Positions 5,252 to 46,213 of a DNA stretch of 46,584 bases are shown in pieces. The number at the start of each line of letters is the position of its first letter. The first letter of the stretch is position 1. The stretch is from NCBI GenBank assembly GCA_002796835.1, contig LUGL01000051.1, positions 2,884-49,467 of the forward strand, in the 5' to 3' direction. Source of the DNA: Elainella saxicola E1. Its GTDB lineage: Bacteria > Cyanobacteriota > Cyanobacteriia > Elainellales > Elainellaceae. The position numbers were made by a program, and so were the translations under genes. The notes under the pieces are model-generated. The model saw only the letters and a list, made by a program, of their open reading frames with translations. It searched no databases and was not told where the DNA came from.

Positions 5252-7528
5252 ATGACACTCAAGCGACGGGCATTTCTACAGCAGGCAGGATCGGCACTGG
5301 CAGCGCTGGGAATCAGCGAAGCGGCCTTGTCGTTGTTGACCGATCGGTATCAGCAGGCCCTGGCTCAACCGACCTGCCGTAAGTTAGCCTTGCTGGTTGG
5401 CATTAATCAATATGCGGAATCAGTTTGTGACTATGTGTCACCGCGTGGCTCGGCCTTGAATGGCTGCCTGACTGATGTGGAATTGCAGCGAGAATTGCTG
5501 ATTCACCGGTTTGGGTTTCAGCCTGCTGACATTCTAGTATTGACGGATCAGGCGGCGACCAGGCAGGGCATCGAGGAAGCCTTTATCCATCATCTAGTTC
5601 AGCAGGCAACTTCTGGTGATGTGGTCCTGTTTCACTTTAGTGGTTTAGGTAGCCAGATTCGGGTTGATGGCACTTCAGAGATGCAGGCCAGTTTGGTGCC
5701 GGTAGATGGGATGTTGCCAACGGCTGAAACGCCGATCGTTCATGATTTGCTGTTAGACACGTTGGGGCTCCTGCTCAGCTCACTGGCGACTAACCAGGTG
5801 ATTACGGTGCTGGATGCTGGCTTTAGTCGTTTGGGCCGCACCTTGCAGGGCAATCTTCACATTCGATCGCGACCTGATACGCCGGTGGGATTAATCGATG
5901 CGGCGGAACAGGCGGTTCAAGACCAGCTCAGTCAGCAAACCCGGATTTCGATCGCTCAGATCCGTCAACGCTGGCAAACGGGACAAGTTCCTGGAATTGT
6001 GTTGCAGGCCAGCAGTCTCGATCGTCCTGCCACGGAAGCCCAGTGGAATGGATTCAGTGCGGGTTTATTCACCTATGCCCTGACCCAGCGACTTTGGCAA
6101 TCGTTACCAGACAGCACCATTGCAGTCACCTTTCAGCAAGCAGTGGGCACAATTTGGCAAACGATGGGTTTAGAACAGCAGCCTGTTTTAAATGGACAGG
6201 CGATCGCTCAGCAAATCCTGCCGGATGCCACTGGTTCGAGTGGAGCGGAAGGGGTGATTCGGTCCGTTGAGGAAGATGGCAAAGCTCAGATCTGGCTGGC
6301 TGGATTGCCCGCTCCAGTTTTAGAAAATGCGGCAGCTTCCTGGTTCTCGCTCGCTAATTTGGAGCAGCCTGATCAGGCAGTGCCTCAACTTCAGTTGCGA
6401 TCGCGAGAAGGGTTGATCGGAAAAGCCCGGAGCTTGACGGGAATCATGCTGCAGCCTAACCAGCAGGTACAGGAAGCGGTGCGGGTTTTGCCTCGTAATA
6501 TTGGCTTGACGGTGGCGATCGACAATAGCCTGGAGCGGATTGAGCGAGTGGATGCCACCAGCGCTTTTGCTGCCATTCCGCGCGTTTCTTCGGTGATTGC
6601 AGGGGAACAGTCTGCAGATTTGCTCTTTGGTAAAACCCAGCCTACTTCGTTGATTGCCGCTTCGTTGCCACTTCAAGCTACGGCGTCTTCTCAAGCAATG
6701 CAGGGTATCCCTCCAGAGCCAGCTGAGCTGCCGCCTGCGATGCCTACGAATGGCTATGGGTTGTTCTATCCCAGCCACTCTGCTATTCCCAATACCCGCA
6801 TTCAAAATATTGAGGCGGTTAAAGCAGCAGTGACCCGTATGGCTCCCCAATTCAAAACCTTGTTAGCGATAAAATTACTCCGCCTTACCCAAAATCAGGG
6901 TTCTTCGCGGTTAGGTGTGCGGGCATTCTTAGAAACCCTTGCTCCGCAGGCGCGTCTATTGGCAAAACAGGAGACTTTACGGCTACCTCTGCCTGCCAGT
7001 TCTGCTCCAGGGGCTGGCTCTGCAAATGCGCCACTGATTCTAACGAAGGGCAGCCAAATTCGATATCGGCTCAAAAATTATGGCAGTTTTCCGGTGTATT
7101 TCTTGCTCACTGGGGTAGATACAAGGTTGAATCCTGTCATCTTCTATCCGACTCAGTCTGGCCTCAGCAATGCTGACCAGTCTAGGGGAACGGGTCGCTC
7201 AATTCATCCTGATGAAGAAATTATCTTGCCGCTCAACCAGCTCAAGAGTTGGCAAATTCAAAGTCCGACTGGTTTAGCTGAAACCCATATCATCTTTAGC
7301 CGCCTGCCGTTTTATCAAACTGAACAGGTTTTAACTGCCGAGTCACGCAGTGCTGCTGAACCGTTTAGCCCGATCGCGAATCCGCTCGAAGTGGCTCAAG
7401 CTATTCTCCAAGATTTGCATGACGCAAGCAGTGCTGTTCTGCCGCCGATTGATCTTCCGACTGACAGCTATGCGCTGGATGTGAATGCCTGGGCAACGCT
7501 CAGCTTTGTCTATCAGGTCACTTGTTGA
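5252..7528 (+). CDS. Caspase-fold protein with both catalytic residues lost (pseudo-orthocaspase), DUF4384-like C-terminus
   Basis: 758 aa. It starts with a twin-arginine-like signal (KRRAFLQQAGSALAALG), so export is likely. The caspase-like domain (about 43-300) begins RKLALLVGINQY and has the N-DVELQRELL, DVVLFHFSGLGSQ and QVITVLDAGFSR segments. In active metacaspases and orthocaspases these read S-G-H-G and D-x-C-H-S-G. Here the His position is Leu132 and the Cys position is Gly190, so peptidase activity is not expected. The C-terminal part (about 560-750), with SQIRYRLKNYGSFPVYFLL, PVIFYP and a late sandwich-like region, resembles DUF4384, often seen after caspase domains. Inference: a non-enzymatic scaffold or regulator outside the cytoplasm. 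Confidence 0.85.
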   Translation: MTLKRRAFLQQAGSALAALGISEAALSLLTDRYQQALAQPTCRKLALLVGINQYAESVCDYVSPRGSALNGCLTDVELQRELLIHRFGFQPADILVLTDQAATRQGIEEAFIHHLVQQATSGDVVLFHFSGLGSQIRVDGTSEMQASLVPVDGMLPTAETPIVHDLLLDTLGLLLSSLATNQVITVLDAGFSRLGRTLQGNLHIRSRPDTPVGLIDAAEQAVQDQLSQQTRISIAQIRQRWQTGQVPGIVLQASSLDRPATEAQWNGFSAGLFTYALTQRLWQSLPDSTIAVTFQQAVGTIWQTMGLEQQPVLNGQAIAQQILPDATGSSGAEGVIRSVEEDGKAQIWLAGLPAPVLENAAASWFSLANLEQPDQAVPQLQLRSREGLIGKARSLTGIMLQPNQQVQEAVRVLPRNIGLTVAIDNSLERIERVDATSAFAAIPRVSSVIAGEQSADLLFGKTQPTSLIAASLPLQATASSQAMQGIPPEPAELPPAMPTNGYGLFYPSHSAIPNTRIQNIEAVKAAVTRMAPQFKTLLAIKLLRLTQNQGSSRLGVRAFLETLAPQARLLAKQETLRLPLPASSAPGAGSANAPLILTKGSQIRYRLKNYGSFPVYFLLTGVDTRLNPVIFYPTQSGLSNADQSRGTGRSIHPDEEIILPLNQLKSWQIQSPTGLAETHIIFSRLPFYQTEQVLTAESRSAAEPFSPIANPLEVAQAILQDLHDASSAVLPPIDLPTDSYALDVNAWATLSFVYQVTC

Positions 7529-34824: not shown

Positions 34825-35832
34825 TCATTCGCGATCGACTGGCAATCCTAACTTTTGTTTGAGCTGGAACCAGACCGATCGAAGCTGCCAGAATTTGCTG
34901 GTTTCCATGGCGGCGATTCTGGCTTGAAGGTCACCGTTTTCTTGCTGAAGCTTGGCAATTTGGGCGTCCGTTTGGCTTTTGTCCTGAGATTGGACCAGTT
35001 GCCTTTCGAGGGTTTTAATTCGATCTTCTGCCCCTTCAATGTGGCGTAAACGAGCCAGAGATAAAGTATTCGTTCTTTCTAGCAGATCGTACTTCTCGAC
35101 GAACATGGTTTGCAGCTTGTTCAAGCGTTTAATCAACCACTCCGGCTCAGAACAAAGCGGGTTTTGATTTTGAATGTCAAAAACTTCAGTAAACAATTGG
35201 ACAATGTTGGCGGATGCTCCCCCATGGGCGTAGGAGACGATCGTCCGGGGTAAGTAGCAAAACTTGAATGTTGGATCTTGCAGAAATCTGAGAAACCATT
35301 CGTAGTCTGAGGCGATTTTATAGGTTTCGTTGAACAATCCAACCTGCTGGAATAAGTTAGCCCTAAAAAAGCTGGTAGGTTGGTGAAAATGATCATCTCC
35401 CAAGCACACCATTTCTTCCAGCATCTTCTCTGGCAGAACAGGTTGATAGATGGCTCGATCGCCTGAGGCAAAACGTGCTTCGTGATTGCCATAGACGAGG
35501 TTACAGTCAGGATGAGCCAGGACAAAATCGACTAAATCTTGAATGACGGACGCATCAAATAGATAATCGTCGGCGTTGGCAAAGTAAAGGAAATCACCAG
35601 AGGCTTGGGTAATTCCCCGGTTCATCGCTTGATAAATGCCATTATCAGGTTCACTCAGAAAGACAGCAATTCGATCGCGATATTGCTGAATGATTTCTTT
35701 AGTTCCATCCTGTGAATCACCATCAATTACAAGATATTCAATGTTGGGGTAGGTTTGGTCAAAAATCGCCTGGATCGTTTTGGCGATCGTCTTTTCTGAG
35801 TTTTTGCAGACGGTGATAATTGATACTTTCAC
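34825..35832 (-). CDS. GT2 glycosyltransferase with C-terminal coiled coil and FW tail
   Basis: 335 aa, GTG start. The GT-A domain (about 1-215) is canonical: KVSIITVCKNSEKTIAKTI, YLVIDGDSQDGTKEII, the acidic sugar-nucleotide site YFANADDYLF, and an acceptor region with ASDYEWFLRFLQD. A coiled coil follows (about 270-310, QIAKLQQENGDLQARIAAM). The protein ends in ETSKFWQLRSVWFQLKQKLG, the tail shared with three other proteins of this cluster. The enzyme resembles WcaA/colanic-acid type transferases. Donor and acceptor unknown. Confidence 0.9.
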   Translation of the reverse strand: MKVSIITVCKNSEKTIAKTIQAIFDQTYPNIEYLVIDGDSQDGTKEIIQQYRDRIAVFLSEPDNGIYQAMNRGITQASGDFLYFANADDYLFDASVIQDLVDFVLAHPDCNLVYGNHEARFASGDRAIYQPVLPEKMLEEMVCLGDDHFHQPTSFFRANLFQQVGLFNETYKIASDYEWFLRFLQDPTFKFCYLPRTIVSYAHGGASANIVQLFTEVFDIQNQNPLCSEPEWLIKRLNKLQTMFVEKYDLLERTNTLSLARLRHIEGAEDRIKTLERQLVQSQDKSQTDAQIAKLQQENGDLQARIAAMETSKFWQLRSVWFQLKQKLGLPVDRE

Positions 35833-36117
35833 AGGTTTTTACGGCTGGATTTCAGAATTCAAGACTGTAACGGATGATTTTGCTCAATATGGATGATCGA
35901 TATCATCCAGCATACGCAGGCTGCACTTCCTAACGAATTGATCAGAGCCAATTTTTAATTTTTGAGAGGATTACTCAGAAGCCAATCTTTTCAGGGTGAG
36001 TTGTCCATAACAATAACCATATCTGCGCTCAAAGCAAGTGGTCAATCCATTTCCGTTCTCTGTTATTGTGTTGAGGTTATTAGATCAAGCGATAGTCCCT
36101 TTCTTCAATGCAAGCTT

Positions 36118-37251
36118 ATGGATTACAACGAACAGTTCGCGATTGAAGCTAATAATTTCTACAATGTAGCTGGGAAATCTGTTTTAGTTGTAGGCTGTGC
36201 ATACGGCAAGGATTGTACCTATTTTATTGAATTTGGCGCTTCGACTGTTTGTGGAATTGATGTTAACGAAGCAATTGGCAGAGACTTTGTTCACGAGCGA
36301 GTAACCTATTTCTGCATGTCAGCAGAGAAGATGGATTTTCCAGATGACTATTTTGATCTGACCTACTCGGTTGCCACAATGGAGCACATACCCCATATTG
36401 AACCTGCCTTTTCAGAGATGGTAAGAGTAACTAAGCCTGGCGGCGCGATATATTGTGTGGCAACACCGCTCTGGAATTCTCGCGAGGGGCATCATAAGGC
36501 TGATGTTTTTGACACTAATAAGTATCCATGGATTCACTTGCGCTTTACTAAGAATGAAATCATGGAGAAGTGTCATCGAGGAGAGATTGATTATCCTGCT
36601 GAGATAACAGATATTAACCTTCATATTGAGTACATCTTTAATCCCTTGCATTTCAATTTTGAATCAGCTCAAAAGTATTTGGATGCATGTAATAAATTAG
36701 AGAATATTGAAATTATCCGTAATGAAATCGGTTGTGAATCCAACGAGATTCTCACGGAGGAGCTGAAGCAAGAACTCTTTGCAAAAGGATACAATGAACT
36801 AGAGTTGCTTGGTTTAGGTCATACTTTTGCAGCTATTAAGAAACCTAATGAATCTTCGCAGAAAGCAGAAGTTGAAACTACATTCAACCTTCAAAATGAG
36901 GATCAACAAACTTGGGTCTTAACAGAAAGTCTTAAGCTCATTAAAGAGCAACAAAAGCTAGCTCAAAAGGCTCGAGAGGAATGTCAGATGCAGTATGCTC
37001 AACTCGAAAGCCTGATATATCAGCTTCAACAAACCACTAATCAACAATTGCTCTTAAAAGACAAACAGATTGCAAAGCTTCAAAAGCAATTGGATAAAAA
37101 AGAAGCTGATTTAAGAAAGTACTCTAATCAAGTAAGAGAGATGGAGATAGTTGTACAAGCTATGAAGAGTAGTAAATTCTGGAAGTTTCGTTTGTATTGG
37201 CTTCGATTGAAACAGAACCTAGGAATTAAAACTGATGAAATTGTCAGTTAA
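36118..37251 (+). CDS. SAM-dependent methyltransferase with C-terminal coiled coil and FW tail
   Basis: 377 aa from ATG 36118. The methyltransferase domain (about 15-170) shows GKSVLVVGCAYGKDCTYFIE, VCGIDVNEAIG, DFPDDYFDLTYSVATMEHIP and VRVTKPGGAIY. After about residue 245 comes a Gln/Lys/Leu-rich coiled coil (KDKQIAKLQKQLDKKEADLR). The end carries KSSKFWKFRLYWLRLKQNLG, the cluster's shared tail. The frame is open 52 codons further up to TTG 35962, but that part has no methyltransferase likeness; no ribosome-binding site decides the start. Substrate is probably a glycan sugar, by context. Codon use is more A+T-rich than in the housekeeping genes. Confidence 0.82.
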   Translation: MDYNEQFAIEANNFYNVAGKSVLVVGCAYGKDCTYFIEFGASTVCGIDVNEAIGRDFVHERVTYFCMSAEKMDFPDDYFDLTYSVATMEHIPHIEPAFSEMVRVTKPGGAIYCVATPLWNSREGHHKADVFDTNKYPWIHLRFTKNEIMEKCHRGEIDYPAEITDINLHIEYIFNPLHFNFESAQKYLDACNKLENIEIIRNEIGCESNEILTEELKQELFAKGYNELELLGLGHTFAAIKKPNESSQKAEVETTFNLQNEDQQTWVLTESLKLIKEQQKLAQKAREECQMQYAQLESLIYQLQQTTNQQLLLKDKQIAKLQKQLDKKEADLRKYSNQVREMEIVVQAMKSSKFWKFRLYWLRLKQNLGIKTDEIVS

Positions 37252-37782
37252 TGGAATCTGTACTGTTTGTCAATTCCTCCTCAAGCTAAGGAGTAAGTAG
37301 CTTGAGGAGGCTAATTATCCATTCCTTAACTTTACATAGCTGATCATAGATGCCAAAATCTCCTAGCCTTAATTAAGCAGAGCTCTAAATTTACATTTTG
37401 TAGTTGATTGAGTGATTGTAGAACCTTCCTTGATCGTAGAATTCTTGCTTGAGCTTGCTATGCGATCGGCCGGTTGACAAACGAATTTCAGACGGTAAAT
37501 TTGAGGTAGCTGAAAAGATGAGTTCGACCATAAAAACTGTTTGGTTCGACTGTGCGTAACATAAGGAAGTCTTAATTTCTAGAGAGTTTATTGTTAAGTA
37601 GATTGAAATTCTTGCTTGATAGTTAGTTACGATTTTCATTTTGCAAAAATCAAAACTCCTCTTCATACCGAGCCCATAAAAGGTATATACTTACTCTTTG
37701 TTATTGACAGTTGATTAATTTTTTGTTTGAAAACATCAAAAGATTACGATTTGCTCCTATCAGTGTTCCATTTTGAGGTGTC
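37252..37782. other. A+T-rich intergenic region
   Basis: 531 nt starting with a long hairpin (37276-37310). The remainder has no supported gene; a 91-codon minus-strand frame at 37391-37666 shows no family signal. The last 100 nt should contain the promoter for the three-gene run 37783-41661. Confidence 0.4.
37276..37310 (+). terminator. Strong 13-bp hairpin after the methyltransferase gene
   Basis: CCTCCTCAAGCTA (37276-37288) and its exact reverse complement TAGCTTGAGGAGG (37298-37310) with a 9-nt loop, 25 nt after the stop at 37251. The T tract is poor (CTAATTATCC), so it may act as a terminator or only as an mRNA-end stabiliser. Confidence 0.6.
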
Positions 37783-39207
37783 ATGAAAACTTCTTTAGCC
37801 CGAAAGCCTGTGCAATATGAACAGCTTCAAGATCCTCTGGAGAAGTGGCGAAAACGTAATCTTTATTACTACAAAGATCTGGAGAAACTTTGTCAGTTTT
37901 GGGTGCAGACGGACTCTAGGGTGTTAGAGGTTGGATCAGGAACAGGCTACTTGCTGAATGCCGTGCGACCAAAAGAGGGATTGGGAATTGATAACAACCC
38001 TATTGCAGTAAAAGTGGCTAGTGAGAAATTTCTGGATTTAGATTTTGAAGTGGCCGATATTGAGGAGTTTCAAGAGGGCAGTAATTTTGATTATGTTTTG
38101 ATGGCTAATACGATCAGCTATCTCAATAATATTCAAAAATCCTTGCAGAATATTCGTGAGCTTTGTCAACCTTCTAGCCGACTGATACTGACTTTCCATA
38201 ATCCTGCCTGGGAATTAATTCTGAGATTTGCTACCCTTATCCGCCAAAGAATATCTCTGCCGCCTCTAAATTGGTTGAGTTTTGAAGACGTGGAAAATCT
38301 GCTAACGTTGGAAGGGTTTGAGGTTGTGCGGCATGGGAAACGTTTGCTTCTACCTAAGCGAATTCCTTTGATTTCTTGGCTTGTGAACCGTTTTTTGGCT
38401 CCACTACCAGTCTTGAATCAACTATGCCTGACAGAATACATTATTGCTCGTCCACAACCTACTGTGGCTCAAGCAAGTGTTTGTAAAGCTAGCTGCTCGA
38501 TAATTGTTCCAGCCCGCAACGAAGCAGGGAATATTGAGCAATGTGTAAGCCGTATGCCCCGTATGGGTAAGCATACAGAAATAATTTTTGTTGAAGGGCA
38601 TTCCTCTGATAACACCTGGGATGAAATTCAGCGTGTGCAGGAAAAGTACAAAAAACAGTGGGATATAAAGATTTGTCAACAAACTGGGCGGGGCAAGGGC
38701 GATGCAGTCCGTCTAGGATTTGAGATGGCATCGGGGGATGTGTTGATTATCTTAGATTCCGATTTAACTGTTAGGCCCGAAGATTTGCCGTATTTTTTTG
38801 AGTCTGTTGCATCGGGTCGTTGTGAGATGGCGAATGGTTGTCGCTTAATTTATCCGGTCAACTCTGAGTCTATGCCTTGGCTTAACCGTATGGCAAATCG
38901 TTTTTTCGCTTGGCTTCTCTCTTATTTGCTCAATACCAAAATTAAGGATTCGCTGTGTGGAACGAAAGCGATGTCACGAGAAAACTATCTTAAGCTGGCA
39001 GCAAATCGTTCCTATTTTGGAGATTTTGATCCATTCGGAGATTTTGATCTTTTGCTTGGTGCAGCAAAAATGGGATTGAAAATTCAAGATATTCCTGTAC
39101 GTTATGTTCCAAGAACATATGGTCAATCGAATATTCAACATTTCAAAGAGGGGCTGATTCTGTTAAAGATGTGTTTGTATGCAGCTAAGCGCATCAAATT
39201 TACCTGA
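37783..39207 (+). CDS. Fusion of a SAM methyltransferase and a DPM1-like GT2 glycosyltransferase
   Basis: 474 aa. The N-terminal methyltransferase (about 25-225) has SRVLEVGSGTGYLLN at 45-59, GLGIDNNPIAV and a late FHNPAWEL region. From about 236 a GT2 domain follows: CSIIVPARNEAGNIEQCVSR, EIIFVEGHSSDNTWDEI, GRGKGDAVRLGFEMASGD, VLIILDSDLTV (acidic metal site) and DSLCGTKAM. This set is closest to polyprenyl-phosphate sugar synthases such as DPM1/ArnC, but it lacks their extra membrane spans. GAGG lies 4 nt before the ATG. It heads a run with a second methyltransferase and a GT-C-like membrane protein. Confidence 0.88.
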   Translation: MKTSLARKPVQYEQLQDPLEKWRKRNLYYYKDLEKLCQFWVQTDSRVLEVGSGTGYLLNAVRPKEGLGIDNNPIAVKVASEKFLDLDFEVADIEEFQEGSNFDYVLMANTISYLNNIQKSLQNIRELCQPSSRLILTFHNPAWELILRFATLIRQRISLPPLNWLSFEDVENLLTLEGFEVVRHGKRLLLPKRIPLISWLVNRFLAPLPVLNQLCLTEYIIARPQPTVAQASVCKASCSIIVPARNEAGNIEQCVSRMPRMGKHTEIIFVEGHSSDNTWDEIQRVQEKYKKQWDIKICQQTGRGKGDAVRLGFEMASGDVLIILDSDLTVRPEDLPYFFESVASGRCEMANGCRLIYPVNSESMPWLNRMANRFFAWLLSYLLNTKIKDSLCGTKAMSRENYLKLAANRSYFGDFDPFGDFDLLLGAAKMGLKIQDIPVRYVPRTYGQSNIQHFKEGLILLKMCLYAAKRIKFT

Positions 39208-39249
39208 TGATTACATTGGCGAAAATTACGTTAGAGGTGGTAATTGCTG

Positions 39250-40029
39250 ATGAGTTTATTGAAGATGGTTAAGCTTCCAGAAGCCTCTCAAATGCAGAAT
39301 TTGGATGATCCCGAAAATATTTATGTATTGAAAAAGATCATCCGCCGTAAACCATTCTTGTTTAAAACTTATAAGGAGTTCTACCGAGATATCTTACGTA
39401 AGATTCGGACTGTTCCTTTTGATGGTGAGGTGATTGAACTGGGCAGTGGAGCAGGCTTTCTGAAAAGCATGGCACCTTTTGTCATCACTTCGGATATTTT
39501 GCCCTATGAAGGCATTGACCGAGTTTTCTCAGCTTTAGAAATGCCAATGGATTCAAAAAGTGTAAGTGCTTTCGTCATGATTGACGTCTTACATCACATT
39601 AAAGATTCCAGAGCCTTTTTTACAGAAGTGAACCGTTGCCTGAAGGTTGGTGGGAAAATTGTGATGATCGAACCCGCTAACACACTTTGGTCCCGTTTTA
39701 TTTACAAAAATTTTCATCACGAACCGTTTGATGTAACGGGAGGCTGGGGATTTGAGACAGGAGGTCCTTTGAGTGGAGCAAATATGGCAATCCCATGGAT
39801 TATTTTCTATCGGGATCGGAACAAATTTGCTAAAGAATTTCCTGGTTTGAAAGTACGATCGATCTGTATTCATACTCCATTTCGATATTTACTAAGTGGA
39901 GGTCTGTCATTACGGCAGCTTTTGCCTTCTTGGTCTTATCGTTTCGTTCGGCTTGCGGAGTGGGTGATGTCGCCATTCAACTCCTATCTTGGCTTGTTTA
40001 TGACGATCGAGTTGCAAAAAGAACTTTAA
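39250..40029 (+). CDS. SAM-dependent methyltransferase
   Basis: 259 aa from ATG 39250 (TTG 39244 is possible). AGAGG lies upstream. The SAM motif GEVIELGSGAGFLKSMAPF is near 55-73, followed by a DILPYEGIDRVFSALEMPM acidic loop, SAFVMIDVLHHIKD and LKVGGKIVMIEPANTLW. The C-terminal half has several hydrophobic segments and an FHHEPFDVTGGWGFETGGPL stretch seen in methyltransferases acting near membranes or on glycans. Substrate not known. It sits 42 nt after the fusion protein and 15 nt before the membrane glycosyltransferase-like gene, so these three are probably one operon. Confidence 0.85.
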   Translation: MSLLKMVKLPEASQMQNLDDPENIYVLKKIIRRKPFLFKTYKEFYRDILRKIRTVPFDGEVIELGSGAGFLKSMAPFVITSDILPYEGIDRVFSALEMPMDSKSVSAFVMIDVLHHIKDSRAFFTEVNRCLKVGGKIVMIEPANTLWSRFIYKNFHHEPFDVTGGWGFETGGPLSGANMAIPWIIFYRDRNKFAKEFPGLKVRSICIHTPFRYLLSGGLSLRQLLPSWSYRFVRLAEWVMSPFNSYLGLFMTIELQKEL

Positions 40030-40044
40030 CAAAAATATTGAATT

Positions 40045-41661
40045 ATGACTCCTATATTTAGATTGAAAATAAGTCGGGAATCAATTACTTTCTATTTCAT
40101 TAGCTTCGCTCTAATTCTTGCCCTCTGGTTTTTAATCTTCTGGCGAACTGGACTGCTTACTTCAGGCTTTCGCTACCTTATCAACGATCACTTGATGATT
40201 ACAATGGCCCATGATCTTGGGCAGAAAGGGTTTTTATCAACCGTTCGAGATTGGATTGTTTTTGATCATTCCATTGGTAGATTTCAACCTTTCTATTATA
40301 TTCAAGCAATTACTATAACTCAGCTTTTTGGAATCAATCCAACATTCTGGTTGAGCTATGTTTGCTTACTAGCTGGGTTGAGTAGTTTTTTCCTATTTTC
40401 TTTTGCCCGTTTATATGGAATGCCTACTTTAGTTGCTGTCATCTTTGTGGGAATTATTTTTATTGGCCCCCAAGCGACTATGTGGGCATTACCAAGTAAC
40501 CCTCAAGTGATTGGGATGACGTTTCTTTCAGCGACGTTGCTACTTGCAGCACTGAATGCCGAATCAAGAAAGCAGCGCATTGTTTTAGACATCACTTTTA
40601 TCCTACTTACTGCACTTGCTTCATTAAGTAAAGAATCTTTTATCCTCTTTATTCCAGCCTTGCTCGTTATTAAAGTCCTGCTTGAGTCTGAGCACAAGCA
40701 AATTACTTTGTATCAAGCAATTATGCAGAATAAATCGGTTATTGCTCTACTGCTATCTCTCATGGGTGTTGAGCTTGCATTTATTCTGTCATCGGTTGGA
40801 ACAGATCGCATGGGCTATGCTGGGGTTGATCAAAATACTTTTGATTTTGAAAAGATTTTATCTACTATTGGTACTATTACGAAAGTAACTCATTTGGAAG
40901 TTGTAGCAATCTTAGCAATTCTGCTTGTAGTTACTATTGTCTGGAGAAAAGAATCTTTCTTAAATATCTCTAGAAAGCTAGCCCCAACTCTAGTAATCTC
41001 ACTTCTAATCGTTATTCCTCAGATCTTACTTTATACAAAATCAGGTATTGATGGGATTTATCTGATTCCTGCAACAGTTGGAGTGGCACTATTAACTTGC
41101 CAAATCTTAACTTTGTTGCAATCGCAAGCAAAATTTGTAGGCTACTTTCTATCAGCTTTATTGTTTGTCATTGTCCTAACAGGACTACCTGCTGTTTTGT
41201 CCACCTATAGTCAAACAGCCATTGACAGTAAGAATATGAACAATTTGTTTCAACAGGCCCAAGCTTGTACGCCTAATAATGATCCAATCCTTGTAGCTGT
41301 AAACCCCAGAGTACGTTACGAAGCTACTCTTGCGGTTAAAAGGGCGCTGAATTATGTTTATCAAAGAAATAATTTGATCTTAGCAACGTACGGGCTAGAA
41401 AAAACAGATTTTTTCTCAGATCGCCTTCAACTAGTTGAAGCTAGCATGTCTTTCCTGAATCCCCAAGGACCATTAGAATGGTACGATAATAGATCAATTA
41501 CCCATTTCAGTGAAAAAGATAGAATTTCAGCTGTAATAGTTTTCGATCACTTAGACGAAGACTTTTTGAAAAGTTCAGATAATTGGTTCATTCCTTCGAA
41601 TTACAAACATACTGATTTCCCGATTAGTTTTGCTCCAGCTCGTCTGTATTGCAAGCGATGA
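40045..41661 (+). CDS. Polytopic membrane protein, GT-C glycosyltransferase-like
   Basis: 538 aa with about 11 hydrophobic spans between residues 15 and 400. A soluble C-terminal domain (about 405-538) is probably outside the cytoplasm. The first loop after span 1 contains RYLINDHLMITMAHDLGQ, an acidic loop where GT-C enzymes keep their catalytic Asp or Glu. This layout fits a lipid-linked-sugar-dependent transferase, and the gene directly follows a DPM1-like synthase that could supply such a donor. Wzy-type polymerases or other membrane proteins are alternatives; no family signature is decisive. The ATG at 40045 is 15 nt after the methyltransferase gene. Confidence 0.65.
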   Translation: MTPIFRLKISRESITFYFISFALILALWFLIFWRTGLLTSGFRYLINDHLMITMAHDLGQKGFLSTVRDWIVFDHSIGRFQPFYYIQAITITQLFGINPTFWLSYVCLLAGLSSFFLFSFARLYGMPTLVAVIFVGIIFIGPQATMWALPSNPQVIGMTFLSATLLLAALNAESRKQRIVLDITFILLTALASLSKESFILFIPALLVIKVLLESEHKQITLYQAIMQNKSVIALLLSLMGVELAFILSSVGTDRMGYAGVDQNTFDFEKILSTIGTITKVTHLEVVAILAILLVVTIVWRKESFLNISRKLAPTLVISLLIVIPQILLYTKSGIDGIYLIPATVGVALLTCQILTLLQSQAKFVGYFLSALLFVIVLTGLPAVLSTYSQTAIDSKNMNNLFQQAQACTPNNDPILVAVNPRVRYEATLAVKRALNYVYQRNNLILATYGLEKTDFFSDRLQLVEASMSFLNPQGPLEWYDNRSITHFSEKDRISAVIVFDHLDEDFLKSSDNWFIPSNYKHTDFPISFAPARLYCKR

Positions 41662-41732
41662 GTTAGTCTCGACTTTTGTTAGTTGTTTATCATAAATAGC
41701 TTTTAGAAGTCTCCTATTTTAGGGAGTGCTTA

Positions 41733-43061
41733 TTATTCTCTCCTAATGAGGATGGTTTTCAACTTGGTAATCTGATCACGTACCTTCCAAAACCTACTTG
41801 CTTTCATTGACTCAACTTCAGCTTTAGATTCCCTAAGCTCGTTCTGTAGTGCTTCTATTTTTATCTTTTGACGTTGAACTCTGCCGCGAGCTTTCTCTAA
41901 ATTCGCTCGTACTTTCTGAACTCGGTCTAGACAATTCTCTAAATCTTGCTGGCTGTGCTGAAGTGAGATTAGGGCTTTGCAGTGACGATCTTGCTCTTCA
42001 GCAAGCTTGATCTGAGTTTCATAGAGTTGAGTTTGTGACTCTATGAATTGAGCTTGTGCTTCTGTTAACTGATCCTTACCTTTTTGAACTTGATCATTCA
42101 GAATTTGGATATCTCTTCCAAATCGTTCAGCAATTTCAAAAGCCTTACCCCGATCGTCTTCAACAAATGTGAGGCGATCGGCTAGTTGAGTATATCTGTT
42201 GCGACTGTCTAATAATGCTTGAATGATTCGCTGGGATGGCTGCTCAGATAACCTCTGGTTGATTACCTGATCATTATATTGAGTCAAAGGTTTTTGGCTG
42301 ACTACAAAAAACATATCCGTTTTAAACATTGGTTGTTCAAATTGGATACAACCAAAATCTAGACGCTCGAACAGTTGTTTGGTGGAACGCTCATTAAATA
42401 GATATAAATGTTCGATAGGAACCAACATCTGCAAGAAAGCATCTTGCTCCGCAACCAATTGCGTATATGATTTACCTTGATAGTTTGGCATTTGTATTAG
42501 AAAGATGCCATCTTCTTTTAACAAAGACGTACAACAGGAAAGCGTTGAGATGGGATCAGGAAGGTGTTCCAGAACATCAAATAAAACGATCGCATCTAGC
42601 GATTTTTCAGGCAGATGCTGTTCTTCAATACTTCCTTGTAAGACTGGAATATCAAAAGTTTGATGGGCAAAATCGACAATCCAAGGGCTGAGTTCCAAGC
42701 CTACTGCGTCAAATCCTGCCCAACGGGCTAGCGCAACAAAACCACCGTGAGCACAGCCTAACTCTAATACTTTAGCCTGGGGAAGCTTATACTTCAAAAG
42801 TGTTTGCAACCAATATAAGCAACGCTCTGGCAGATCTTGGCGGGCACGCTGATGAATATCTGGAAAACCGTAATTGTCGGTTTGATGCGAAAACCAATAG
42901 TCTTTGCCGTAAAAATCTTCATTGTCATTTTGGACGATCGCTTCTTCTGCGGTGAGACCAGCTTGAGAGACTAAAGTTCCACAGGCAGAGCAGAGGCGAT
43001 AGTCTTCAGAAAAAGGGACTAAATCCTCACTGCCGCACCAACAGCGTTTTATATCAGCCAT
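41733..43061 (-). CDS. SAM-dependent methyltransferase with N-terminal zinc ribbon, long coiled coil and FW-type tail
   Basis: 442 aa. Two cysteine pairs at the start (CWCGS and CSACG) form a likely zinc ribbon. The methyltransferase domain (about 85-235) shows AKVLELGCAHGGFVALARWA, VGLELSPWIVDFA, DAIVLFDVLEHLPDPI and DGIFLIQMPNY. A long coiled coil covers about 300-415. The end is KASRFWKVRDQITKLKTIL, a divergent copy of the cluster's tail lacking the second Trp. It starts 41 nt after the stop of the 1036-aa protein on the same strand, with AAGG upstream of the ATG, so the two are likely co-transcribed. Substrate unknown, probably a sugar. Confidence 0.88.
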   Translation of the reverse strand: MADIKRCWCGSEDLVPFSEDYRLCSACGTLVSQAGLTAEEAIVQNDNEDFYGKDYWFSHQTDNYGFPDIHQRARQDLPERCLYWLQTLLKYKLPQAKVLELGCAHGGFVALARWAGFDAVGLELSPWIVDFAHQTFDIPVLQGSIEEQHLPEKSLDAIVLFDVLEHLPDPISTLSCCTSLLKEDGIFLIQMPNYQGKSYTQLVAEQDAFLQMLVPIEHLYLFNERSTKQLFERLDFGCIQFEQPMFKTDMFFVVSQKPLTQYNDQVINQRLSEQPSQRIIQALLDSRNRYTQLADRLTFVEDDRGKAFEIAERFGRDIQILNDQVQKGKDQLTEAQAQFIESQTQLYETQIKLAEEQDRHCKALISLQHSQQDLENCLDRVQKVRANLEKARGRVQRQKIKIEALQNELRESKAEVESMKASRFWKVRDQITKLKTILIRRE

Positions 43062-43102
43062 ACCATACCTTGAAAACTTTAAGTATAGATCTAATGATTA
43101 GA

Positions 43103-46100
43103 TCACGTGTCTTCGATCGGTAACCCCAGCATTTGTTTAACCTTGAACCAACGTGAACGAAGTTTCCAAAATTTGCTTGTCTTCATGGCAAAAATCATCC
43201 CTTCTGCCTCTCCTAAGCGTATCTGAGTTTCTTCTAGACTTTGGTTGGCTGTCTGTAGTTGTTGGCGTGTAGTCTTTAATTTTTCGCGAGTTTCTTTCAG
43301 CGTCTTTTCAGTAGACTGGATTTGAGCTTGTGCTGCTGCTAATTCGTTTTGGAGTTGCTGGGTGTCGGCATTGACTGAGGCAACAGGAGCAGTACTTTGT
43401 TGAATTTGAGACTGCAAATGACGAAATTCATTCCAAATGGGAGAGACTTGCATAAATGCATCATGCTGCAATTTTTCCGCCGTTTGCATCAGCACATTGG
43501 CAACAATATCAGCCATTTTTGTCCATGAAAAGTGCTGTGCTTGCTCCAGACCAGCAGATACCATGCTTTCGCGAATGTGAGGATGGCGTACCTGTTCCAA
43601 AGCCGCGATCATCTCTTTGATATTGCCATCTGCAACATAGCAAGCTGCATCACCCGCAACTTCAGGAATAGAAGAGTGACGCCCTGTGATCACCGGACAG
43701 GCACAGGCCATGGCTTCCGCGATCGGCAATCCAAATCCTTCATATTGAGACGGATAAACCAACGCTAATGCACCACTATAAGCCGTCCGCAAGTCATTGT
43801 CGTCTAAAGAGATAACGTGCGTTTCAACTCCTTCTGCTAGAGCTGCAAGTTCTGATTCTAGTGCTGGACGTCCGCCTACACAAACAATAGCAATATCATG
43901 CTTATCTGCAAATTCTTGCAATGCACGGAAGAAGAAAATGGCATTTTTATAACCATTCACCCCAAATCGATCGCCCACTAACAAGTAATAGGGTTTGGAT
44001 AAGTTGAATTTGGCTTTGAATTGTTCTACTGCCTCTGGGCCAGCAGGAGAAAATCCCTTTGGCACACCGCAGTGTGCAACCGTGACTGCCCACTCAGGGA
44101 TGTGAGGAAAGAACTTTAACAGATCTCGAGCAGTGCTTTCGGAAATGGTGATATAGCGGCAAGCATGGAAAATGCCATAGTGCTTTTCTTTCCAGCCAAT
44201 TTCGTTTAAGTTTGCTCCGATCATCTCTGGAATCATGTCATAGGTCATGAAAACCGAGGGAGTCGATAGGGGAGCTGTGTAATAGGTAGAAATGAAAAGG
44301 TCTGCCTGTTTCTCGTCACAAACCTGCTGCAGCATTTGGGCATCAGAGCCAGTTTGATGATAATCGAATCGCCGGACCGGACGATAGCGAACGCCAGGAA
44401 TTCTAGGGGCAGTTCCGTCGCGATCGAGCACAATCACATGTTGGGCAAAACCATTTGCAACCCATTCTTCTAAGAGCGATTGCCAAACTCGGGCAATGCC
44501 GGATTTTGCGACCTGAAAGAACATGCCATCAACCACAATTTGGGGAAATGGCTTTTTCATTTGGTTCATCGCTTCTTCCCACCCCTCTTTCGATAGAAAA
44601 TACCAGCTATCCGTGTCTGCTTGACGTTGTGCAACCGGAACAATGCCACATTTCTCTGCCGATTCCACTAAAGTATCGTCATTTACCCATGGAAAATACT
44701 CTCGCAAGAAGATGGGATAAGTGAGATCAGCTTGTTGCTGAAGTTCCATCCAACGAGCTACAGCTCCCTTGTAACCGTAGTACTGCTCTTTGAATTGCAA
44801 TTGCTCTGGCGTGACATAGGCAAAATGCTGGAAAAGCAACCCCTGTTTTTCTGTTTCCTGATGGGAGAAGGGGTTAATTGATGCAATATCCAAGTTTTGA
44901 TCGTTTGCCAAAGGCTTGACTAACCGGGGTGGTTCGTGAGCTACCCAAATTGCTCCGGGCTGGAATCGCCATGTTCTCAACCATTCTTGTTGAGGATTTT
45001 GTGTATAGCAGTTGCGAGAACTGATCACTAACTGCTCACCTACAAAATACCAACACCAATAGAAAGCAGCTGTCTTTTCGGGATGGTGAACAAACAGTTG
45101 ATGAACTGTTGCAATTTGTTCAACTGACCAAAATTCATCGACATCAACTTGCCAGAGTAAGCATTCCTCCTGGATATTTTCCAAGGGTGCATTAACCATC
45201 TCTCGTTTACCATCCCAGAATTGACCTTCTGGTGGGCGATAGAGTGTGACTTGATCGGGATATTCTTTGGCTAACTTATTGAGATATTCAGTTGTCCCAT
45301 CTTTGCTCAAGCCATTGCAATGAATATCGTCAGTTACCTGCCCACCATGGGAAAGACTCCAAGCTGTGTCATGTTTTAGATCAGCAACCCCTTCAACAAT
45401 GTGCCAGTGCCATCGATAGGGCAATTGCTTGAAAATATCAATGTGGTAGCGAATGAAAGGTTCTCCATTCAGAACGATCGTAAAAAAGTGAATGGGTAAA
45501 TCTGTTGCCAAGTCTGTGGTTTGAGGACGATCGATCTTTCTGAAAATAGAATACCCATTTCGTAGAGAAGTATTTTGAGCAATCAACGCATAGTTTGGAT
45601 CAGCCAATAAGCGTCGATGGCTGAAGTAATTTTTATAAGTGCAGATATCATCTAGAAGAATAAATTTAGCACCATAGACTTCGTCTAGCTCGATATTTCC
45701 TGTGAACTCGGATCCATCAATTAAAACTAGATCAAAGCAATCAATCTGATTCTCTGCTTTAATGCGTTGAATTCCGTCATCTGGAACTGATGTGGCTGTT
45801 ATATAGTCAATATCTTGCTGTAGCCAACCCACTACCTGTTGTTTGGGAAAATTCTTGAGGGGAGTTTGATATTTATCGTAAAACGCTTCAATTTCAGCGG
45901 CAGTGGGAAAGTTGGAGACTGGAATGGAAGAGACATTGTAGCAGTGCACGAAAGAATCATTGTCGTAGCAAGCTTTTAGGGCTGCAAAACGGGCTTGGGA
46001 AACTTCCATGCAAAACATGCGGGGAGAATTAGGGTTCCTCCGCAAGCCTTTGACAAAAGCTTCCGTACTACCACCTCCTGATGAAGAACCAATTTCTAGA

Positions 46101-46213
46101 ACGGTTCGAACATCGCTGCGTTGGGCAAGCCGCTGAATTGCAGAATAGAACTCATCATTTTTGATCTCGGGGGCAATGAGATAGTTGAGTTCAGAATCTG
46201 TTACATTACTCAC
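43103..46213 (-). CDS. Three-domain protein: methyltransferase-like + glycosyltransferase + GT4, with coiled coil and FW tail
   Basis: 1036 aa from GTG 46213 (GAGG 8 nt upstream). Residues 1-228 form a Rossmann domain with RTVLEIGSSSGGGSTEAFVK and DLVLIDGSEFTG, as in CmcI/FkbM-like methyltransferases. A GT-A-like part covers about 238-540 (HFFTIVLNGEPFIRYHIDIF, ECLLWQVDVDEFW). A GT4-type GT-B domain follows at about 563-925 (VDGMFFQVAKSGIARVWQSL, YLLVGDRFGVNGYKNAIFFF, YPSQYEGFGLPIAEAMACAC). A coiled coil at about 945-1005 leads into KTSKFWKLRSRWFKVKQMLG at the end. It probably carries out several steps of one glycan's synthesis. Confidence 0.88.
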   Translation of the reverse strand: MSNVTDSELNYLIAPEIKNDEFYSAIQRLAQRSDVRTVLEIGSSSGGGSTEAFVKGLRRNPNSPRMFCMEVSQARFAALKACYDNDSFVHCYNVSSIPVSNFPTAAEIEAFYDKYQTPLKNFPKQQVVGWLQQDIDYITATSVPDDGIQRIKAENQIDCFDLVLIDGSEFTGNIELDEVYGAKFILLDDICTYKNYFSHRRLLADPNYALIAQNTSLRNGYSIFRKIDRPQTTDLATDLPIHFFTIVLNGEPFIRYHIDIFKQLPYRWHWHIVEGVADLKHDTAWSLSHGGQVTDDIHCNGLSKDGTTEYLNKLAKEYPDQVTLYRPPEGQFWDGKREMVNAPLENIQEECLLWQVDVDEFWSVEQIATVHQLFVHHPEKTAAFYWCWYFVGEQLVISSRNCYTQNPQQEWLRTWRFQPGAIWVAHEPPRLVKPLANDQNLDIASINPFSHQETEKQGLLFQHFAYVTPEQLQFKEQYYGYKGAVARWMELQQQADLTYPIFLREYFPWVNDDTLVESAEKCGIVPVAQRQADTDSWYFLSKEGWEEAMNQMKKPFPQIVVDGMFFQVAKSGIARVWQSLLEEWVANGFAQHVIVLDRDGTAPRIPGVRYRPVRRFDYHQTGSDAQMLQQVCDEKQADLFISTYYTAPLSTPSVFMTYDMIPEMIGANLNEIGWKEKHYGIFHACRYITISESTARDLLKFFPHIPEWAVTVAHCGVPKGFSPAGPEAVEQFKAKFNLSKPYYLLVGDRFGVNGYKNAIFFFRALQEFADKHDIAIVCVGGRPALESELAALAEGVETHVISLDDNDLRTAYSGALALVYPSQYEGFGLPIAEAMACACPVITGRHSSIPEVAGDAACYVADGNIKEMIAALEQVRHPHIRESMVSAGLEQAQHFSWTKMADIVANVLMQTAEKLQHDAFMQVSPIWNEFRHLQSQIQQSTAPVASVNADTQQLQNELAAAQAQIQSTEKTLKETREKLKTTRQQLQTANQSLEETQIRLGEAEGMIFAMKTSKFWKLRSRWFKVKQMLGLPIEDT

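Follow-up and report, generated by a model that had tools for sequence, protein, structure and literature searches.

The DNA analysed here, referred to as the window, comprises 46,584 nucleotides of Elainella saxicola E1 (contig LUGL01000051.1, positions 2,884–49,467; genome of 8.70 Mb) and contains a glycan cluster in which four proteins end with a coil-like stretch followed by a short, shared sequence, the tail. Three of the four genes are on the minus strand and one is on the plus strand. The first protein (34825–35832, minus) is a GT2 glycosyltransferase of 335 residues (PF00535, E 4.2e-26); the head of its predicted model has the fucosyltransferase WrtF as top Foldseek match (E 2.3e-18). 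Its tail motif reads ETSKFWQLRSVWF, the whole tail covering residues 306–329 (34846–34917, minus; profile E 6.6e-25), with the invariant serine at position 312. The plus-strand gene codes for a methyltransferase (35962–37251; PF08241, E 3.8e-16), of which the longest frame opens at 35962 and an in-frame ATG is present at 36118; the motif KSSKFWKFRLYWL was read from the frame 36118–37251 and the tail is at 37153–37224 (E 1.3e-24). A second methyltransferase, of 442 residues (41733–43061, minus; PF13489, E 1.6e-24), has a coil of about 130 residues and a degenerate tail, KASRFWKVRDQITKLKTIL (41748–41816, minus; E 8e-19), with KASRFWKVRD as its motif. The fourth protein (43103–46213, minus), of 1036 residues, consists of an N-terminal region, a weakly GT2-like middle, a GT4 domain (PF13692, E 1.3e-20), a coil and the tail (43124–43195, minus; E 2.7e-25; motif KTSKFWKLRSRWF).

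The original prediction had described four near-identical tails on four unrelated-looking enzymes encoded on both strands. All four tails are present in these open reading frames; near-identity applies to three full copies, but the one on the 442-residue methyltransferase lacks the second Trp-Phe and the glycine, with the full motif present in the five best relatives (loci L042, L061, L062, L066 and L073). The catalytic domains do differ, but two of the four proteins match the same methyltransferase families in Pfam. For the 1036-residue protein, which had been labelled methyltransferase, GT2 and GT4, the GT4 domain is the sole part above the Pfam cut-off; the first 240 residues (FtsJ, E 0.25) and the middle (Glyco_tranf_2_4, E 0.021) fall below it, and for these two parts the labels are plausible readings.

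A genome-wide search with a profile built from the four window tails, which themselves score between E 2.7e-25 and 8e-19, gave five strong matches, four of them in the window cluster. The fifth, which was outside the profile input, is on contig C111 (locus L005, E 5.8e-10), in a protein with an FkbM-type methyltransferase region and, judged by eye, a long coil; the next-best candidate has an E-value of 0.19. This outcome excludes chance resemblance of the tails. No Pfam or NCBIfam model reaches its cut-off on the tail of any of the four window proteins; in the NCBIfam scan, generic coiled-coil models extend into two of the tails, far under their cut-offs (ASRP, residues 322–435, and Rad50, residues 857–1025).

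The tail is widespread in cyanobacteria, as had been supposed. At E 1e-3 or better it is carried by 63 of 292 cyanobacterial genomes, the window's included, with 117 hits in 21 families; these counts are lower bounds, no more than 28 candidates per genome having been scored initially. A scan covering 84,980 species confirmed 288 stretches; the 80 best of them represent 75 loci, each of which is cyanobacterial judging by its title or genus name. The plasmid scan returned one Nostoc record with a tail, the phage scan did not find the tail, and the scan of viral contigs gave a single match. The latter is a tail-bearing gene, methyltransferase-like on reading, near a recombinase-like gene on the 117-kb viral contig IMGVR_UViG_2914436621 (L196:2209–3072); it may be carried as cargo by a phage or mobile element, or may belong to the host.

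From the named loci, 138 proteins with a tail were run on Pfam in a set of 65 and a set of 73, where one protein may match several families. In the first and second set, respectively, Glycos_transf_2 matched 18 and 27 proteins, Glycos_transf_1 18 and 14, and Methyltransf_23 22 and 21; FkbM, Methyltransf_24, TylF and one sulfotransferase were also matched. A larger set (the window, L005 and L042–L193) contains 259 distinct tails on 252 open reading frames, 189 of which have a GT2, GT4 or methyltransferase-type domain according to a local profile scheme. The remaining 63, some of them cut by locus ends, received no class in this scheme; when 20 of these were run on Pfam, 15 matched glycosyltransferase, methyltransferase, sulfotransferase or radical S-adenosylmethionine (SAM) families at E 1e-3 or better (one of these matches, in L116, is below the curated cut-off). 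Overall, the tail is found on GT2, GT4 and GT8 enzymes and on SAM methyltransferases of various types, as well as on one sulfotransferase and one radical-SAM protein. These observations support the tail being a portable module used across many catalytic folds, as originally proposed.

Of 184 distinct tails (loci L001–L116 and the window), 151 are within 30 residues of the carboxy-terminus. A strictly C-terminal element was considered and is ruled out: 10 copies are followed by 31–100 residues and 23 by more than 100. Tails also occur in tandem, about 50–70 residues apart (L067, L047, L090/L122, L079 and L104), L104 being a radical-SAM protein with two tails.

Residues are numbered from the invariant serine (Ser0), and frequencies refer to 252 anchored tails of the larger set, from which seven of the 259 distinct tails were left out, having no anchor match. 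Ser0 is present in 97%, Lys1 in 98%, Phe2 in 98% and Trp3 in 100%; these four values are inflated because the search pattern (Met, Ser, Lys/Arg, Phe and Trp) and the anchor rule (Ser or Lys/Arg, and Trp) fixed those positions. Arg6 (99%), Trp9 (97%) and a basic residue at position 13 (97%) were part of neither, and in the 94 tails found by the profile they are present in 98%, 99% and 93%, respectively. The mean net charge from Ser0 to position +17 is +5.5 (n = 246); between +1 and +16, basic residues average 5.5 and acidic residues are absent altogether from 202 of 250 tails. On a lipid-binding discriminant, 98% of the tails are above the threshold versus 2% of the preceding coil stretches, chiefly through the charge. 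As described originally, Phe2, Leu5, Trp9, Leu12 and Leu16 share one face of a helical wheel, but this face is not a purely hydrophobic one, as discussed below.

Before the serine, hydrophobic residues of the coil occupy positions −27, −24, −20, −17, −13, −10, −6 and −3, a regular spacing of three to four; after a shift of one residue, they continue in the tail at +2, +5, +9, +12 and +16. Coil-like runs by a crude composition rule measure 58, 103, 133 and 64 residues in the four window proteins, with a median of 51 over the 252 tails; that they form coiled coils is a prediction. The AlphaFold model of the GT2 protein (16 sequences, mean predicted local distance difference test score, pLDDT, of 85) has a GT2 head and two coiled-coil-like helices, residues 230–281 and 285–311 (34900–35145, minus). 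The helix breaks at Ser312, the equivalent of Ser0, and a tail helix spans residues 313–327; ten-residue means of the pLDDT are 65–82 over residues 241–330. A separate tail helix, starting just after the invariant serine, is predicted. A model of a natural fragment with tandem tails (four sequences, pLDDT 48, unreliable) breaks just ahead of both tails, and is too poor to judge how the tails might pack together.

The resumed heptad spacing raises the alternative that the tail is an oligomerisation cap, continuing the coiled coil with Phe2, Leu5, Trp9, Leu12 and Leu16 at its a and d positions, fixing a dimer or trimer and perhaps forming mixed oligomers within a cluster. A precedent might be WbdD, of which a fragment containing the start of the coil is a trimer (PMC3482155). 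The helix break at Ser0 in the better model, and those before the two tails in the poor one, argue against such a cap, as does the lack of cluster-specific likeness between tails; we regard it as improbable. For this last point, tails on unrelated enzymes of the same cluster were compared (49 pairs; 113 tails of 61 genomes were usable among the 117 hits of 63 genomes). Their likeness is 0.540, versus 0.522 for shuffled tails (standard deviation 0.015), and 241 of 2000 shuffles were as high; it is 0.551 between clusters of the same genome and 0.519 between genomes. The power of the comparison is limited by most tail positions being near-invariant. Cluster-specific address tags are thus not supported, and neither is the heteromeric, cluster-specific pairing that had been proposed; unmatched tails within clusters speak against address codes and for one common target.

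Could the tail just be sequence inherited or shuffled at recombination junctions between glycan genes, with no function of its own? Catalytic modules are indeed shuffled in these clusters, and the tails found internally or in tandem have the look of products of recombination. Among the window tails, identical residues with degenerate codons use a different codon in 33 of 58 comparisons (summed over six tail pairs and not independent), versus 37.3 expected if codons were random. The tail residues are thus conserved while the synonymous sites of the window copies are near saturation; this divergence also rules out recent gene conversion, or recent copying of one DNA segment, among them. Nine orthologues of the 1036-residue protein (36 pairs) are on average 66% identical over their catalytic part and 65% over the tail, versus 29% over 60 residues of coil: the coil preceding the tail evolves like a spacer. 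With residues kept in this way, a functionless remnant is very improbable indeed. A tail-bearing orthologue of 1035 residues, 57% identical to the 1036-residue protein, is also present in the endosymbiont of the diatom Epithemia clementina (L048).

In all four Moorena orthologues of the 1036-residue protein (L061, L062, L066 and L073), the tail (FRLKPLL) runs directly into transmembrane-like segments, in an extension of about 94 residues. By a simple hydropathy rule, 28 of the 252 tail open reading frames contain any such segment; apart from the four Moorena proteins, the segment does not touch the tail in any of these (24).

Genes for tail proteins are strongly clustered. In the 29 genomes with several copies, the window's included, 65 of 83 tails are less than 20 kb from another tail, versus about 1.5 expected for random placement in an assumed 5-Mb genome. 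Pfam matches among 140 of 422 neighbouring open reading frames include GT2 (21), ABC_tran (9), ABC2_membrane (8) and Wzt_C (5), the last being the domain that was sought genome-wide. Of the 292 genomes, 49 have both the tail and Wzt_C, 14 the tail only, 26 Wzt_C only and 203 neither (Fisher p 5e-24, uncorrected for phylogeny). In genomes with both, 47 of 87 tails lie within 10 kb of Wzt_C, versus 0.6 expected, and tails linked in this way occur in 30 of the 63 tail genomes, across 11 families. The Wzt_C matches fall into two groups, with 30 of the 63 best-scoring ones near a tail, whereas not one of the 52 that score lower is. A large share of the tail clusters thus are of the Wzm/Wzt type for glycan export. 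The enzymes are gathered in glycan clusters, as had been predicted, and the profile search suggested at the time reaches many enzyme families with a strong tie to such clusters, so that both computational tests of the original prediction came out in its favour.

Wzt-type open reading frames, recognised by motif, are present in 22 of the 75 named loci, in 11 of them with a wzm-like gene (at least four predicted segments) upstream. In 13 of the 22, a tail gene follows directly downstream of the Wzt-type frame, and all 13 encode methyltransferases (12 by a local hidden Markov model, that of L094 as TylF) with a coil-like run of 27–117 residues before the tail; as several of these loci belong to closely related organisms (Microcoleus, Tychonema and similar genera), they are not independent. 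Six of the other nine have a gap of about 0.7–2.1 kb before the first tail gene and three lack a downstream tail gene. In L058, L070 and L093, the next tail gene codes for a multi-glycosyltransferase protein, with several glycosyltransferase modules after its tail.

This arrangement resembles that of WbdD (E. coli O8/O9a and Klebsiella O3/O5), which is described as an N-terminal methyltransferase with an extended coiled coil and a C-terminal membrane-proximal helix, working with a Wzm/Wzt exporter (PMC3482155, PMC11231755, PMC6286764); the helix is amphipathic and the C-terminal region recruits the polymerase WbdA (PMC11231755, PMC3482155). The likeness includes the position of the methyltransferase-coil-tail gene directly after wzt in the 13 adjacent cases. 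This gene order and the connection with Wzm/Wzt exporters go beyond the original prediction, as do the internal and tandem tails and the break of the predicted helix at the serine. In the window, a methyltransferase domain is present in two proteins (Pfam), which might end the chain, an extended coil separates head and C-terminal region (helices 230–311 of the GT2 model), and a basic and aromatic C-terminal helix of 15 residues, in the tail with its mean net charge of +5.5, is predicted. The systems differ in that WbdD is described as the sole protein in its pathway to have a coiled coil, whereas here several enzymes of a cluster, glycosyltransferases included, share the tail; nor is a kinase family among those listed for the tail proteins (in one list, 25 of 32 families). 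We do not claim that the window proteins belong to the WbdD family: the resemblance drawn here is one of layout.

Basic amphipathic helices may serve other glycosyltransferases in the same way; the ruler helix of PglH reportedly brings this enzyme to the membrane. Such helices also do so in the GT-B enzymes PimA and LpxB, but there they are part of the catalytic domain and not a portable tail (PMC6286764). KpsC, a glycan enzyme that works in a pathway with ABC export, likewise has a short C-terminal basic and nonpolar helix, but it is a single enzyme family with a disordered tether, and the available part of PMC10148158 mentions no coiled coil. The Klebsiella O7 terminator ORF6 and its orthologues, some of them cyanobacterial, combine a methyltransferase with a coiled coil, in some cases with glycosyltransferase modules after the coil, a layout resembling the methyltransferase-tail-GT2 arrangements found here; they differ in being one terminator family with a kinase domain, and no shared tail is mentioned in the part of PMC11231755 available. 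In the accessible portions of the literature on WbdD, KpsC and PglH, cyanobacterial and Wzt topics included, no such shared tail is described, and the string SKFWKLR had no match in the literature searched, which mostly excluded subscription papers.

We consider it probable, at roughly 60%, that the tail acts as a short anchoring helix close to the membrane, borne on a coiled-coil stalk and gathering the enzymes of one surface-glycan pathway. Cyanobacteria would attach this one tail to many different enzymes of the pathway. Glycosyltransferases that build the chain, and methyltransferases that modify or end it, would in this way sit side by side at the cytoplasmic surface of the membrane, in many cases next to a Wzm/Wzt exporter. 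The membrane may be contacted by the basic and aromatic face of the tail, while the coil might determine how far the catalytic head reaches or how it oligomerises, as in WbdD; where a cluster is linked to Wzt, ending the glycan chain would fall to the methyltransferase. Membrane binding itself we infer: the basic and nonpolar character of the tail, the Moorena segments and the helices of the closest systems indirectly suggest proximity to the membrane, but the picture of a tail lying flat on it, as first proposed, is weakened by its hydrophobic moment of 0.36, which is only 0.6 standard deviations above that of shuffled tails.

Several other observations also weigh against an anchoring helix beside the exporter. 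Arg6 and the basic residue at position 13 lie inside the hydrophobic arc, between Phe2/Trp9 and Trp3/Phe10 (100-degree wheel, by hand), and an in-plane membrane helix alone would not need basic residues there. The invariance at the level of single residues exceeds what membrane binding alone usually demands, and the Moorena extension is confined to one genus. As to the exporter, the profile search gave no Wzt_C match on the window's contig; the three matches in the genome are on contigs C41, C159 and C91, where the tail profile finds nothing. Fourteen of the 63 tail genomes have no Wzt_C match; where a genome has both, a distance of 10 kb or more separates 40 of the 87 tails from Wzt_C, and 33 of the 63 best Wzt_C matches have no tail within 10 kb. 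Two genomes with the window's type of cluster, G127 and G268, have no Wzt_C at all. The Wzt link therefore holds for many tail clusters and is not shown for that of the window; Wzm, or an ABC-type ATPase without Wzt_C, was not sought systematically.

The same basic residues inside the arc, together with the near-invariance of Arg6, Trp9 and Lys/Arg13 across unrelated enzymes, would suit a protein docking module, in which Ser0, Lys1, Trp3, Arg6, Trp9 and Lys13 form a face binding not lipid but one conserved partner, such as an exporter, a scaffold or a common coiled-coil protein. The 23 internal tails are compatible with this, and so is the recruitment of WbdA by WbdD mentioned above. A common partner gene was not found, Wzt_C, the only one sought genome-wide, being absent from the 14 tail genomes just noted; the tail merges into transmembrane-like segments in the four Moorena orthologues; and no solved structure among the chains in the PDB matches it, the best hit (E 0.4) being a designed repeat protein. 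Docking to a protein instead of the membrane is, in our view, unlikely, if less so than the oligomerisation cap. A bolder reading would make the tail a phylum-specific sorting tag for glycan enzymes, with a specific receptor or lipid reading S-K-F-W-x-L-R-x-x-W-F-x-x-K at one membrane-bound assembly site, and new polysaccharides composed by tagging new catalytic domains; this we put forward tentatively, as an idea somewhat more likely to fail than to hold.

Cyanobacterial surface polysaccharides are of industrial and ecological importance, and the authors of PMC4594306 state that identifying the glycosyltransferases of the cyanobacterial ABC-transporter polysaccharide pathway was not part of their work. 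In Synechocystis, mutants without Slr1610 are reported to look almost like those without the Wzm/Wzt homologues (PMC3769361). A signature of about 24 residues across 21 families offers a search handle for the enzymes of cyanobacterial glycan clusters, and suggests which methyltransferases may be chain terminators. The tail might also serve as a tag with which enzymes could be assembled at a membrane, and the WbdD single-scaffold model would be extended to many enzymes sharing one conserved anchor helix per cluster.

In the window left of 26 kb, ten open reading frames were scanned, of which eight match mostly housekeeping families and two match no family. A protein of 758 residues with a caspase domain (Peptidase_C14, E 7.7e-15) is encoded at 5252–7528. 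Inside the glycan cluster, a hydrophobic protein of 538 residues (40045–41661) has no Pfam match even at E 1. To the right of the window, a GT2 paralogue and a gmd-like gene, identified by reading the translations, precede the end of the contig, 2.3 kb beyond the window. The GT2 paralogue (L194:3556–4242, nearly all of it past the right end of the window) contains, close to its end, one undetermined base; a coil, judged by eye, is encoded 3' of the paralogue and stops at a TSRS end with no tail. A related protein in another locus (L042:1883–2839) likewise has a coil and a TSRS end.

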